Assembly: GCF_014193425.1 (NCBI RefSeq)
Contig: NZ_JACHZG010000001.1
Span: 310,001-374,000, forward strand
Origin: Microlunatus antarcticus
GTDB taxonomy: Bacteria; Actinomycetota; Actinomycetes; Propionibacteriales; Propionibacteriaceae
Length of the DNA: 64,000 bases
Direction of reading: 5' to 3'
Shown: piece by piece, positions 57,425-63,388 of the stretch
How the letters are laid out: each line of letters starts with the position of its first letter
Position numbering within the stretch: position 1 is the stretch's first letter
Program-made: the position numbers and the translations under genes
Notes under the pieces: model-generated
What the model was told of the DNA's origin: nothing
The model's input: the letters and a program-made list of their open reading frames with translations, nothing else
The model's database searches: none

Positions 57425-58360
57425 TTACGACGTCGGAGACGTGGGACCGACGGCGGGTCCGCCGTACATCACGTCCCGGCTGGCGTCGGTGAAGCCGTAC
57501 GCGCGGTAGAGCCCCACCGGTCCCGGCTGGTCGGCCTCGACGTAGAGCTCGACGACCTCGTCGCCGGCGTCGCGCAGGTGCGCGAGCCCGGTGAGCAGCA
57601 GCGCCTTGGCCAGCCCGCGGCCCTGCGCGTCCGGGTCGACCCCCAGCACGTACACCTCGCCGAGCCCCGCCTCGCCGAGCGCGTCGTGCTGCTTGGTCCA
57701 GTGGAAGCCCAGCACCTTGCCGTCAGGATCTCCCGTGGCCCGCGCCAGGAAGAAGCCCGCAGGGTCGAACCACGGCTCGTGCAGGCGCTCGGCCAGGTCC
57801 TCGGCGTCGATCGAGCCCTGCTCGGGGTGGTGGGCGAAGGCACGCGCGTTGACGGTCAGCCAGGCCTGCTCGTCCGTCCCCACGCGGAACGGCGCGATCG
57901 TGATCCCGGTGGGGACCACCGGCCCGGGGAGGTCGGCGAGGGGCCGTTCCATGATCAGCAGCGTGCGCATCGGGACGAGGCCGGTGCGGGCGGCGAGCGC
58001 GTGGGCGGCGGGGGAGTCACCGAGGGCCCACACCTGCAACCGGAGGCCCAGGTCGCGGGCCGCGTCGAGGAGCGAGGTCATCAGCAGACCGCCGACGCCC
58101 TGCCGCCGGGACGCGGGGTCGACGACCAGCTGGCCCGTCCCGTCGGCGGCCAGCTGGGCGTAGCCGACCGGCTCCGGCCCGCGGAGCGCGACGAGGTGAC
58201 GCGTGTCCGGACGTTCCGGGTGCTTGAGGGCGAGCAGCCCCGCTTCGTTGAGCGCGGGAGACGGGTCCGCCGCGGCCGCACGCTTCAGAAGGGCGCCGAC
58301 CCGGTCGAGCAGCTCGAGGTCCGGGTCGCGGCTGATCCGTACGTCGTCCGCGCCAGGCAT
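57425..58360 (-). CDS. mshD: Mycothiol synthase (acetyl-CoA:Cys-GlcN-Ins acetyltransferase)
   Basis: Last step of mycothiol synthesis. The 311-residue protein has two tandem GNAT domains. The first has LVVDPASRRQGVGGLLM. The second, catalytic one has GFHWTKQH, GEVYVLGVDPDAQGRGLAKALL and VELYVEADQPGPVGLYRAYGF. ATG 58360 has TAGCGT 7 nt upstream. In mycobacteria it neighbours glnR, as it would here without the inserted block at 59-62.6 kb. Confidence 0.94.
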   Translation of the reverse strand: MPGADDVRISRDPDLELLDRVGALLKRAAAADPSPALNEAGLLALKHPERPDTRHLVALRGPEPVGYAQLAADGTGQLVVDPASRRQGVGGLLMTSLLDAARDLGLRLQVWALGDSPAAHALAARTGLVPMRTLLIMERPLADLPGPVVPTGITIAPFRVGTDEQAWLTVNARAFAHHPEQGSIDAEDLAERLHEPWFDPAGFFLARATGDPDGKVLGFHWTKQHDALGEAGLGEVYVLGVDPDAQGRGLAKALLLTGLAHLRDAGDEVVELYVEADQPGPVGLYRAYGFTDASRDVMYGGPAVGPTSPTS

Positions 58361-58415: not shown

Positions 58416-58958
58416 GTGGCGAACGGCGGCAGGACCAACGATCCCGACCTGCTGGTGGCCGGTGCTCAGCGCAGCGCGATGCTCGTGGCCGTGGGGTCCG
58501 TGCTGGCGACGGCGTCGGTGATCCTCGCCCTGCTGGCGCTGAACGCGACGACGAGCGGCGTGACCTCGACGACCGCGGTGCCCTGGATCATCGCCCTGCT
58601 CGTCTGCGGTGCGCTGATCGGCGTCTGCTGCGTGGTGCAGCAGCGGCTGTGGCTCCGCGCCTGGAACGTCTGGCGCGTGGACCCCTCGGCCAGCGTCGGC
58701 GAGCGCTTCTCCTGGGTCGTCCACGTCGTCTCGTACCCGGTGGTCGTCGCGGGCATCTTCGCCGGCATCGCGGCGAGCCACGACGTCGGTTTTGCCGGTG
58801 CGGTGGCGAACTGGTCGACGCTCGCCCTCGTCCCGCTCATCGGCGCGCAGGTCGTCGGCGCCGTCCAGCACGTGCGCAAGGACGGGCCTCCCGGCACGAT
58901 CCCCACTCACGTCCGCCGCCTCGCCGCCCGGATCGAGCGCTCGCGGCACGAGGACTGA
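58416..58958 (+). CDS. Conserved membrane protein, function unknown
   Basis: A 180-residue protein with four hydrophobic segments (around residues 22-44, 52-72, 100-120 and 126-146) and a positively charged C-terminus (HVRRLAARIERSRHED). No family recognised. It is the last host-like gene before the low-GC block. Confidence 0.65.
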   Translation: MANGGRTNDPDLLVAGAQRSAMLVAVGSVLATASVILALLALNATTSGVTSTTAVPWIIALLVCGALIGVCCVVQQRLWLRAWNVWRVDPSASVGERFSWVVHVVSYPVVVAGIFAGIAASHDVGFAGAVANWSTLALVPLIGAQVVGAVQHVRKDGPPGTIPTHVRRLAARIERSRHED

Positions 58959-59124
58959 TGCCTTCGGTTACTCAGTCCGGGCAGCCGTTCGCGCCCCCGT
59001 CACGTATAGCCTAGAAGTCGGCAGGGATTCTTTAATACGTGTTTTCCCTAGGCCGGTTACCGGCCGGCGCTCAGATAAGTCTTTTACGATCCCTGTTGCC
59101 TGCGACTGCTTCGGGAGTTCTGAT
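58959..59124. other. Left boundary of the low-GC insertion, no gene seen
   Basis: Composition falls within a few tens of bases of the preceding stop codon. GGCCGG-TTA-CCGGCC (59051-59065) is a small hairpin that could end the convergent transcripts. A GGTTACT heptamer at 58966-58972 recurs at 62679-62685 on the other side. Confidence 0.4.
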
Positions 59125-62100
59125 TCAGTCTTTCGAACGACCTTCCTTGTCGATCCCATCCCGGAGCCGCTCGGCTTTGCGGTGCAGATGGGCCGAGAGG
59201 TCCGCGCGCCCAGCAAGTAGCTCGACTTCAGCAAGCGCAGCAAGCGTCTCTGCTAGTTGTTGTAGGCGACCTTCAGACTCGAAAATCTGGCGGCACTTCT
59301 GTAGAAGATCCCTTGCTAACGGTAGGCGTCCAAGTTCAACAAGCGGCTGCCAGCTATGGAATGCATCAGAAGCCTGCTCGCCCGCTGCTGCGCCCCGAGC
59401 GACTTGGGATCTGTTGATCTCCCCGTTGATGGCAAGCGCCTCATCCCAGAGACGCAACTGCCTCGCGGCCAAGACCAAGGTATTAAGGAGGGATTCCCGA
59501 ACGTTCCAGTCAATAACTGTCGAGTCTGTGGGCCCAGGCGGGTACGGCAAGTCAGGAATCCGAGCATAAAGGGCCCGCCCTTGTTCTAGAGCGCCTTTCG
59601 CGTCTCCCATCAGATACGCAACTTCTAGCCGCGTCCCCTGCGCGAGTAGTTGAGTCCAAGGCCCGCGACCCGCTCTTTGTACATAATCGATTTGTTGTTC
59701 AGCGAAGATGAAGGCCTGGTCAAATATAGATAAATCCATGTAACCGTTAGCGACGTCTCCAGCTAAGCCATACGCAACCTCCCACTCTTCGGCCTGAACC
59801 GACGTCACTAAGAGGTTCTCGAATGCGGCCGTCGCCCGTCTTAAGTCAACGGACGTAAGTGCTCGGGCACGTGTACGGGCCAGGTAGATCTTGATGGCCT
59901 GATCCGTCTCAGCCGCTATGGCGACGTCCAGAAAGGGGATGACGATCGCCGCCGTAAGTGGACTAAGGTCGCGGTTGATTAATCCTTGAGCTGCGAAGTC
60001 AACGTCCGCCCACCTCTTCGAGCGGGCTAGGTACGGCAATCCAGACCTAGCAGCATGCAGGATGGAACTGCCACCGCCCAGGCTTTCGTGACTTAAGCCG
60101 TTGTCAAGTATTCGTAGCCAGAAGTCACCGAGTGTTCGTGCGACTAGATCCAAATAGTTGGTGGATGAAGCGCTAAGGACCGTCTCGGCTACTGCGGGGT
60201 GTATCTCAAACTTGAACGCACGTCCAGATCCATCAGAGGAGACACGGATCAAGGCCTGACTTACCAACTCACCTACGGCTTTGTCGACGTCCGGCCACTC
60301 GGCTAAATTGCTGGAGGTTGCTACAAGCAGGCTCTGCCAGTTCTCCTGGACGACGTTGGAAATCCTGTCGCCCTCCTCAAGTGCAGATAAGTAGGCAAGA
60401 AAGCCTTTACTTCCCGCAGGTAGTGCGTCAAAGACAGACCTGGTCCAGTCTCGGAGCAAGGCGAAGTAATCGTCTCCGGTTGCGTTAGATGCACCAATCG
60501 CCCAGAACGCCTCAAGTGATACGCCACGCTCGATCCACGTTTTCTCGGCGTCATCGAGCTGCATTCTCAAGTTTGAGGGGTATTTTGCCTGAGCGTCGCA
60601 CAACTCGACCAATTTCGGGTGCCCTTGCATCAAGCGCAGCGCTCGAGCCGCTAGGTTTCTGCCAGCAGCCGCACTCACGCCGGCTTCGCTACTCGTCCCG
60701 TCTATTAGCTGGCGGAGGTGCGGCAATTCTCGCGCGAGTAATGCCGACTCCTCAAGACTCAGGGCGTGCACAGGATAGCTACGAACTCGAAGGTTCAAGT
60801 TGGTTGGGACCCGGCGAGTGGTAAACACAACTCGGGAGAGCCCAGCATGGGAGGTCAGTGCGCTAATCAACTGCGACCACCGCGCGTCTCTCCAAGAGGC
60901 GTCAGCGGTAAGGAGCGATTCGATATTGTCTATTAAGACAAGAACTCGGTTCTGCGCAAGGAACTCTGTGAGTAATGTTAGGCGCCGCGAAAGTTCAGTG
61001 CCAGTTGTCAGAACGTCAATTAATGCCAGCCCTGGGATCCTGCGCTCTAACTCCAGAGCAAAGTTGAGTAGGGCTCCGTCGACTGCCGGCGCGGCCACAT
61101 CAGCGGTTGGGGCCTCAAACCAGATGACCACCTGGAACGAATGTTGGAAATTATATGCAACCTCCAGAGCCATAGTCGTCTTTCCTGTACCTGCCATGCC
61201 GTGAAGGAGTGCCCCCACATATTTGGACTGTGGCGCGAGAACTTCTCGCATCGCCGACATGGCGCTAACTCGACCAACAAACCGGTCGGGCTCGGGTGGG
61301 AGTCCTGCAAGCTTGAGATCTGCAGGATCGAAAAAGATCGGTCTGCCTGCCGGTGCGACCATAGAGAGTGTTGCAGCCCGTTCACCGACTAGCATCGGGG
61401 TAGCCGCACATAGCGCACCGAAGTCGAAGGCTGAGTTCTGTAGGTTCCGCCGCAGCGCCAAGCTCAGTGCTTTGGCGACAGGCTGAGCCTTCCCGAGCAG
61501 GATGTCGTAGAACTCGCTCGCAAACGCCACTGCGAAATCGTCTTCAACTGGATAACGCATCGCGAGTGCGGTGCAATCAAGTTTCTCGACTACCTCGCCT
61601 GCGACCGAGAAGCCCGGTGTTTGAGCGCTTGCGGCCGTACCGGTTATGGGCGACTGCGCGAATCCAAGGCTTTCAAGCGTTCGGTGGGCCACTAGCGTGG
61701 CGGAGTTGCATGTGGAGATCGTAATAAGCTTTAGTTGATCAGAGTTGTACTCGAGAATGTCAAGTAGGTCGTCTGAGGTAACGAAGTCTGGCAGGCCCTC
61801 CGATGACTCTAGAACAAGCGAACCGGGCGAGCCGTGGCCTGAAATGTGGATGATATCCCAACCGCTGCCTTCCAGTAGTGCCTCGGTCAACTCTGTGCGC
61901 GTTGCCCCGTATTGAAGGACCTTCAATTCGATTGCTTTGTTGCCAACGGCGGCGATAGAATGAATCAGTTTTACCAGTTCGTATCGCTCCCGCCGCAGAT
62001 TGAGTGCATCTAGGCCTTCTGGATGACTGAAGACGCCAAGCATCCGTAGCCGATCTCCGACTGCGCTCTTTGCAATGGTTCGAGGAGAACTCTTGTCCAG

Positions 62101-62502
62101 TATGAAGTTAACTTGCTGCTCGGCCAACGTCACGCCGTTCACAAGAGCGATCTCCCACGGCTTGTACGCCAGGACCTCGGCGCCGGCCGCTGAGCTCGAT
62201 ATTGTCAGAAGGACGGGCTGGCGACTTTGGCTCAACTCAATGCTAATTGCGCCAAGCCCGTAAGAGGTAAGCCACTCCCCAAGCCCACGAACGATAAAGT
62301 TCTCGTCGTGTGGTTCGCCGTCGGGGTCAGCGTTCGACTGGATGTATCCATCGAGATCAATGAAAGCGGCAAACTGCCAACTTGAGGTGTTCAACTCCGC
62401 TTGATGATCGGCTAACAAAGTCCCATTTGCGGATACAAGTCGCCAGTGCCACCGGCTCAAAGAGGAGAAGGACGTTACCTCAAGTCGAGCAAAATTTGCC
62501 AC
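59125..62502 (-). CDS. CHAT protease - STAND/NB-ARC NTPase - TPR protein (putative immune sensor)
   Basis: A 1125-residue three-part protein. Residues ~130-370 form a caspase-like CHAT domain with the catalytic histidine H223 in HISGHG and the cysteine C265 in STCNSA, both intact. Residues ~405-720 form a STAND NTPase: Walker A GMAGTGKTT (435-443), Walker B VLVLIDN (D525), RVVFTTRR (~557-564) and GHPKLVEL. Residues ~790-1110 are helical TPR-like repeats. The design resembles self-contained sensors in which the repeats detect a ligand, the NTPase oligomerises and the protease fires. The GTG start has GAAGGA at -7. GC is about 52% in a sampled line against 73% nearby, with codons foreign to the host. 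No partner gene is adjacent. Confidence 0.88.
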   Translation of the reverse strand: MANFARLEVTSFSSLSRWHWRLVSANGTLLADHQAELNTSSWQFAAFIDLDGYIQSNADPDGEPHDENFIVRGLGEWLTSYGLGAISIELSQSRQPVLLTISSSAAGAEVLAYKPWEIALVNGVTLAEQQVNFILDKSSPRTIAKSAVGDRLRMLGVFSHPEGLDALNLRRERYELVKLIHSIAAVGNKAIELKVLQYGATRTELTEALLEGSGWDIIHISGHGSPGSLVLESSEGLPDFVTSDDLLDILEYNSDQLKLITISTCNSATLVAHRTLESLGFAQSPITGTAASAQTPGFSVAGEVVEKLDCTALAMRYPVEDDFAVAFASEFYDILLGKAQPVAKALSLALRRNLQNSAFDFGALCAATPMLVGERAATLSMVAPAGRPIFFDPADLKLAGLPPEPDRFVGRVSAMSAMREVLAPQSKYVGALLHGMAGTGKTTMALEVAYNFQHSFQVVIWFEAPTADVAAPAVDGALLNFALELERRIPGLALIDVLTTGTELSRRLTLLTEFLAQNRVLVLIDNIESLLTADASWRDARWSQLISALTSHAGLSRVVFTTRRVPTNLNLRVRSYPVHALSLEESALLARELPHLRQLIDGTSSEAGVSAAAGRNLAARALRLMQGHPKLVELCDAQAKYPSNLRMQLDDAEKTWIERGVSLEAFWAIGASNATGDDYFALLRDWTRSVFDALPAGSKGFLAYLSALEEGDRISNVVQENWQSLLVATSSNLAEWPDVDKAVGELVSQALIRVSSDGSGRAFKFEIHPAVAETVLSASSTNYLDLVARTLGDFWLRILDNGLSHESLGGGSSILHAARSGLPYLARSKRWADVDFAAQGLINRDLSPLTAAIVIPFLDVAIAAETDQAIKIYLARTRARALTSVDLRRATAAFENLLVTSVQAEEWEVAYGLAGDVANGYMDLSIFDQAFIFAEQQIDYVQRAGRGPWTQLLAQGTRLEVAYLMGDAKGALEQGRALYARIPDLPYPPGPTDSTVIDWNVRESLLNTLVLAARQLRLWDEALAINGEINRSQVARGAAAGEQASDAFHSWQPLVELGRLPLARDLLQKCRQIFESEGRLQQLAETLAALAEVELLAGRADLSAHLHRKAERLRDGIDKEGRSKD

Positions 62503-62680: not shown

Positions 62681-63388
62681 TTACTGGCTTGTCGGCACGC
62701 GTCCGGAGTCACGACTCGGCTCGTCGGCCGGGGTGACGAAGCGGTAGCCCACGTTGCGCACGGTGCCGATGACCGACTCGTACTCGGGGCCGAGCTTGGC
62801 GCGGAGGCGACGCACGTGGACGTCGACCGTCCGGGTGCCCCCGTAGTAGTCGTAGCCCCACACGTCGCTCAGCAGCTGCTGACGGCTGAAGACCCGGCCG
62901 GGGTGCTGCGCGAGGTACTTCAGCAGCTCGAACTCGGTGTAGGTGAGGTCGAGCTGGACGCCGTTGAGCTTCGCGCTGTAGCCGGCCTCGTCGATGATGA
63001 TGTTGCCGGTCTGGATGAGCGGGTCGACCCCGGAGTGGGAGACCGGCGTCATCGCGAGCCGCAGCCGGACGTCGACCTCGGCGGGTCCGGCGGTGGCGAG
63101 CAGGAGGTCGTCGAAGCCCCAGTCCGAGCTCAGCGCGGCGAGGCCGCCCTCGCTGGCGATGACCAGCAGGGGTGCTTCCTTGCCGGTGGTCTCGATGAGG
63201 CGGCAGAGCGAGCGGGCCCCGACCAGGTCGCGGCGGGCGTCGAGCAGGATGACGTCGGCGGCCGGTGCGTCGAGGAGCGCCGTGGCCTCGGCCTGGGCGA
63301 CCTTGACCTGGTGCGGGAGGAGCTCGAGCGCTGGAAGGATCTCGGCGGACGCGTGCATGTCGTTCGTCAGGAGCAGCAGGGTGGCCAT
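62681..63388 (-). CDS. glnR: GlnR-type orphan OmpR-family response regulator
   Basis: A 235-residue regulator of nitrogen genes. The N-terminal receiver-like domain lacks the usual acidic pocket detail of phosphorylated regulators ([19 protein letters not shown]). The C-terminal winged helix is standard OmpR type: [24 protein letters not shown], then [20 protein letters not shown]. It closely resembles mycobacterial and Streptomyces GlnR. GAGGAG at -8. The last ~11 residues after PADEP are unlike the family and end within the junction with the insertion. Confidence 0.87.

Follow-up and report, generated by a model that had tools for sequence, protein, structure and literature searches.

The window, a 64,000-nucleotide stretch of the Microlunatus antarcticus genome, contains a gene of aberrant base composition that encodes a CHAT protease, a STAND NTPase and TPR-like repeats in a single chain. 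On a sequence-only reading this gene was an orphan, inserted between mshD and glnR, and a candidate single-gene immune system. The locus raises the question of whether such a protein is indeed an immune sensor and whether the copy found here can still act as one. Taken together, sequence, structural modelling and analogy favour (probability of roughly 0.55) a sparse actinomycete family of single-chain NLR-like proteases, of which the window copy would be a horizontally acquired member and probable immune sensor.

Composition and insertion site of the CHAT gene

The ORF was found exactly where the sequence-only reading had placed it, on the minus strand (Table 1), and the ribosome site attributed to it is plausible: direct reading gives GAAGGA-TTCCAC-GTG, with GAAGGA six bases before the start. 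Its 1125 codons are free of stops and frameshifts, and GC by codon position (0.637/0.458/0.587) retains a coding-like pattern. Scans for sigma-70 promoters and terminators at the gene gave no promoter, and terminators no better than those of shuffled sequences. GC over the whole gene is 56.1%, against 70-75% in its surroundings (a ratio of ~0.56/0.73), and GC3 is 0.587, compared with 0.98 in ppk, 0.93 (0.926) in mshD and 0.95 in glnR. The low GC is therefore not an accident of the two 60-base lines originally sampled, for which the values were also correct (51.7% at 59641-59700, 73.3% at 57841-57900). The low-GC tract extends over ~58,950-62,500, with an intergene of intermediate GC (64%) from there to glnR, and the 3.7-kb segment is clearly foreign by composition.

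Table 1. Coordinates of the CHAT gene, its predicted protein regions and its flanks within the window
Feature	Position	Strand	Evidence
Complete CHAT - NB-ARC/STAND - TPR ORF, 1125 aa, GTG start	59125..62502	-	Pfam, alignment, model
Residues 1-146, pseudo-protease (N-terminal) lobe	62065..62502	-	Structural match, with CHAT, to Csx29 and separase
Residues 147-386, active-type CHAT protease lobe, H223 and C265	61345..62064	-	PF12770, alignment, 8tl0 match
Residues 405-780, NB-ARC-type STAND NTPase and winged-helix region	60163..61290	-	Pfam, alignment, profile and structure matches
Residues 781-1113, predicted sensor arm, TPR-like helix pairs forming a superhelix	59164..60162	-	Model, structural matches
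Last 12 residues and stop; C-terminal module of relatives missing here	59125..59163	-	Alignment, profile
Inserted low-GC segment	58959..62680		3722 bp between two flanking stop codons
Left flank: 180-aa membrane-protein gene, genus-conserved, outside insertion	58416-58958	+	Genus comparison
Right flank: glnR, present in 19/20 genus genomes	62681..63388	-	Genus comparison

Between the stop codons of the 180-aa membrane-protein gene and glnR, the equivalent gap measures -4 to 192 bp in eight genomes of the same genus, compared with 3722 bp here; the insertion thus consists of the CHAT gene alone. Acquisition of this gene by horizontal transfer, as a single gene, is supported. Of the two neighbours named for the insertion, glnR does flank it, but mshD is not adjacent: the 180-aa membrane-protein gene, which is divergent from mshD, conserved beside glnR in the genus and without a Pfam family, lies between mshD and the insertion. 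A search of the insertion borders for repeats, direct or inverted, gave only short matches of the kind expected by chance, and a tRNA-linked insertion was rejected, as the window has no tRNA. The neighbours of the CHAT gene are glnR, the genus-conserved 180-aa membrane protein, mshD and ppk; among the neighbours examined there was no mobile gene, known defence gene or CRISPR gene, and the single sub-domain match of a neighbouring NUDIX gene to PDC-S07 is not informative. The site beside glnR varies in gene content within the genus: in two genomes (G011 and G018; L009, L011) a different gene, by eye resembling polyphosphate kinase 2, is found beyond the 3' end of glnR. A second CHAT protein is encoded in the same genome as the window (G000 C1:1108380-1109060), and at least one CHAT protein is present in 12 of 20 genomes of the genus.

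The CHAT gene was identified in 1 of 57 genomes in the genus and family samples and in 1 of 294 genomes of the order, the sole carrier being the window's own genome. This rarity, along with the GC3 values, supports horizontal acquisition. Among actinobacterial defence systems, those with a GC ratio below 0.8 tend to be rare in any one genus and have been linked to transfer (PMC10482375). The patchy presence and low GC of the CHAT gene would fit such systems, although other transferred genes likewise show both features.

Domain architecture and comparison with known systems

Profile searches and structure prediction agreed with a chain that combines sensor, switch and protease. Pfam identified CHAT (PF12770; 2e-13, residues 76-359, 50.9 bits against a cut-off of 24) and NB-ARC (PF00931; 4.5e-8, residues 432-584, 33.1 bits against a cut-off of 23.5). 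The TPR-like tail is represented in Pfam by a weak TPR_12 match (4e-4, under the curated cut-off) and is supported as a superhelix by an AlphaFold2 model built on 18 sequences (pLDDT 84.3, pTM 0.71), in which a separase-type lobe and a STAND region are also seen. The NACHT profile remained under its cut-off (16.3 bits against 26.7) and the Pfam scan of the protein gave no SAVED profile. The best PADLOC match was a weak one to SAVED_CHAT (16.7 bits, residues 199-357, CHAT part only), beyond which PADLOC matched no named defence protein; the FxSxx-COOH TPR protein (NF040586) scored 48.9 bits against an equivalog cut-off of 300, through the NTPase part only.

Residues H219, H223, C265, G435, G440, K441, D525, G627 and P629 are invariant in 18/18 full-length family members. 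These include the H223/C265 dyad, whose described intactness the model also supports, and the key residues of both Walker motifs (G435, G440, K441; D525). The predicted NTPase motifs are a P-loop (G435-K441), Walker B (D525), a GxP-like motif (G627-H628-P629) and an MHD-like motif (I767-H768-P769), and W18, W20 and P115 of the N-terminal lobe are conserved in the family alignment. As a predicted enzyme, the protein is intact in its catalytic dyad, NTPase motifs and TPR superhelix.

VIA-align comparison of the modelled CHAT lobe (residues 147-385) with activated SAVED-CHAT (8tl0) gave a Z-score of 24.0 and an rmsd of 2.1 A (194 aligned residues, 22% identity), and the model matched Csx29 (7y9x) over residues 1-376 (Z 20.7) and separase (5fc2) over residues 1-386 (Z 20.5). 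Because residues 1 to ~380 match both Csx29 and separase, residues 1-146, a region that the sequence-only reading did not describe, form the pseudo-protease lobe of a separase-type fold, as this lobe is called in separase. A profile of the 18 family members searched against the PDB matched the NTPase to the STAND-TPR protein PH0952, AfsR and APAF1, and a Foldseek search with the model ranked PH0952 first (E 5e-13), with RPP1 and Avs3 also listed.

SAVED-CHAT, a caspase-like protease, is both the best structural and the best PADLOC match of the CHAT lobe, but its sensor is a SAVED domain, which the window protein lacks, and it has neither NB-ARC nor TPR. Csx29 (TPR-CHAT of the type III-E CRISPR system, or Craspase) resembles the window protein in its two-lobed separase-like protease and its TPRs; however, these TPRs precede CHAT, there is no NTPase and the protein is governed by Cas7-11 and RNA, whereas the order here is CHAT - NTPase - TPR. 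Borvo, likewise a CHAT protease, is a single gene; no Borvo-named match was obtained at E up to 1 in PADLOC 2.0.0. CHAT has been placed in phage defence through both Borvo and type III-E CRISPR (PMC10952713). In fungal NLRs with a CHAT N-terminus the protease is part of the receptor and the sensors are repeats, as here; they have been termed 'contracted pyroptotic-like pathways', and those described cluster with a gasdermin gene (PMC10197012).

PH0952, MalT, AfsR and APAF1 share with the window protein a NOD core followed by an arm of TPR or other repeats, but differ in effector: there is none in PH0952, a DNA-binding one in MalT and AfsR, and a separate caspase in APAF1. The tripartite plan of effector, STAND and C-terminal sensor is common to Avs and bNACHT proteins, the latter having a NACHT domain where NB-ARC is above and NACHT below the cut-off here. 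Anti-phage activity is known for STAND proteins that carry an effector at the N-terminus and a variable sensor at the C-terminus, the characterised Avs/bNACHT effectors named being nucleases (PMC10907252). Caspase-superfamily domains together with STAND NTPases and repeats have been described from conflict systems of multicellular bacteria (PMC7159879), and metacaspase-NACHT-repeat and metacaspase-NB-ARC proteins from prokaryotes (PMC3501461). The combination of a caspase-like protease, a STAND NTPase and repeats is hence an already known plan, and the window protein is a further member.

Relatives of the CHAT protein and its short C-terminus

The description as an orphan holds locally, where a single gene was inserted, but not by sequence: sparse full-length relatives (27-39% identity) were identified in large-genome actinomycetes. 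Relatives occur in 12 of 395 genomes of the class and in 16 of 251 genomes of one large-genome family (f92), and one in Streptomyces came to light independently. The tree places the window protein alone on a long branch (1.23) beside the main clade; its donor is thus unsampled, and it has no close relative on which selection could be gauged. Neither the window protein, nor the family alignment, nor a relative matched anything when used to scan plasmids, phages and viral contigs. Among the relatives dN/dS ranges from 0.25 to 1.0, depending on the domain and the pair compared (NG86, which is only approximate for GC-rich DNA); this is high against house-keeping genes, yet at no more than 1 it resembles that of fast-evolving functional genes.

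Homologues do not appear to lie generally in defence islands, where the sequence-only reading had proposed to look for them. Most intact relatives have transporter, polyketide, Hsp90, LigT or comparable genes around them; in four f92 genomes the surroundings of the relative are syntenic and its composition is host-like. The exception is a broken copy (G134, L004:9910-10821, considered with L004:1-9751), which ends shortly past the catalytic cysteine and adjoins a phage integrase domain protein. Some 2 kb away from it lies a type III restriction-modification operon, with genes for a UvrD helicase, a methyltransferase of type III (PADLOC 1257 bits) and a type III-like restriction enzyme. Another genome (G495) carries a fragment, and a third (G536, L050:5834-14402) two head-to-head CHAT-NB-ARC-TPR paralogues, whose TPR parts are 85% identical and whose N-terminal lobes only 47%, a contrast suggesting gene conversion or different substrates.

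Three genomes (G638, G735 and G925) have, ~110-130 bp downstream of the CHAT gene and on the same strand, a gene whose product is predicted to contain 3-4 TM segments. This conserved protein (L047:7119-7757, L048:11879-12580) has no Pfam match and is a candidate substrate or pore. The CHAT proteins of G735 and G925 are identical, the surrounding 19.6 kb being 98.6% identical and the main ppk block 96.0%, values that may or may not reflect a recent transfer between these two genomes. Such a neighbour is confined to one subclade and is absent from most relatives and from the window. The earlier statement that the protein has no partner nearby stands for known defence genes among the neighbours examined, but partner-free action is not a rule of the family, as one subclade has the adjacent 4-TM protein. 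Nor does it follow that the target has to be a host protein or the protease itself, since it could just as well be a phage protein or an unlinked partner.

A feature that had escaped the sequence-only reading is the short C-terminus. The window protein ends 13 residues after R1112, whereas every intact full-length relative runs on for at least 120, leaving it ~110-125 residues shorter than any of them. The C-terminal part of the relatives is variable in length (126-317 residues after R1108) and includes, past the point where the window protein ends, a further conserved TPR-like segment (SHHNLGNYL...AHHLAAALL). When the profile was built without the window protein, this protein aligned to positions 5-1113 of 1287. 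A frameshift was rejected as the cause, module similarity being absent in all frames of 58701-59300; there is also no room for a module of ~110-125 residues downstream, as only ~165 bp separate the stop from the next gene. The C-terminal sensor module thus appears to be absent from the window copy, which is either a natural short form or a copy that lost its end. A single-sequence model of the C-terminal part of a relative was of unusably low quality (pLDDT 54.6). NTPase-sensor contacts help to hold PH0952 and MalT in the off state (PMC6468293), so loss of the sensor end could alter control. The missing module may have changed the specificity, or any responsiveness, of the window copy, and its loss casts doubt on whether this copy still senses.

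Proposed mode of action and alternative explanations

By analogy with known systems, we infer a phage-defence role for the CHAT protein. The resting NTPase would be in an ADP-bound, closed state that is maintained by its contacts with the TPR arm. Binding of a trigger to this arm would release the NTPase, the trigger being most likely a product of a phage or another invader, and ATP binding would lead to oligomerisation, bringing the CHAT domains together for activation by proximity. The activated protease would then cut one or more cellular proteins, resulting in growth stop or cell death (abortive infection). The sensing, oligomerisation, substrate and immune role in this scheme are drawn from the Avs/bNACHT plan, STAND autoinhibition and the fungal CHAT NLRs (PMC10907252, PMC6468293, PMC10197012). 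This reading is supported by the domain matches, the invariant H223, C265, K441 and D525, the foreign composition, the empty site in relatives and the patchy distribution, and the truncated copy beside integrase and type III restriction-modification genes, the fragment, the duplicates and the dN/dS values (~0.25-1.0) suggest family dynamics like those of conflict genes. Against it stand the weak SAVED_CHAT match as the only one to a named defence protein, the ordinary contexts of relatives, the synteny and host-like composition in f92, the lack of copies among the phages, plasmids and viral contigs scanned, the missing module and the lack of a close relative.

The strongest competitor, to which we would give about one chance in four, is a decaying gene that was functional on arrival but has since been deprived of its C-terminal sensor module, leaving a remnant that is inert or only partly active. 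The shortfall against all intact relatives, the lack of module remnants in the 165 bp that follow and the visible decay of other copies (G134, G495) would agree with this; the open frame with all its catalytic and NTPase residues, the coding-type codon-position GC, the plausible ribosome site and the variable C-terminal length of relatives anyway argue against it. Less probable is a regulatory or developmental STAND protease that processes a regulator or other cell protein upon an endogenous signal. The NTPase-TPR part does match AfsR and PH0952 (and, below cut-off, the FxSxx TPR protein), relatives sit in ordinary contexts, which are syntenic in four f92 genomes, and HetF, the cyanobacterial protein from which CHAT takes part of its name, has a role in development and division (PMC8406250). 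A regulatory role in this host is, however, difficult to reconcile with the foreign composition of the gene, its patchy occurrence and its absence from all other genomes of the order sample, and duplicated and broken copies within the family also speak against this reading. Similarly unlikely is a two-part killing system in which the protein supplies the protease and a membrane protein is the substrate, the latter being encoded next door in certain relatives but absent or unlinked in this genome. Its model would be the gasdermin pairs, in which the CHAT protease activates an adjacent pore-former (PMC10197012), and the TM protein after the CHAT gene in three genomes points the same way, yet that arrangement is limited to a single subclade and the TM protein belongs to no Pfam family.

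For the horizontally acquired, probable immune sensor that we favour, the most far-reaching version is itself doubtful: a one-gene 'apoptosome plus caspase' that would sense an invader, oligomerise and, unaided by any gasdermin, CRISPR or pore-forming partner, kill through cleavage of an ordinary cell protein, and that would work even without the terminal sensor module. If the family is immune, it would be a bacterial equivalent of the NLR/caspase pathway in compact form, its receptor and protease joined in one chain, and would offer a clean system for the question of CHAT substrates, free of an adjacent gasdermin or Csx30-like partner. Within it, the natural C-terminal loss would provide a ready-made sensor comparison and the membrane-protein subclade a substrate comparison.
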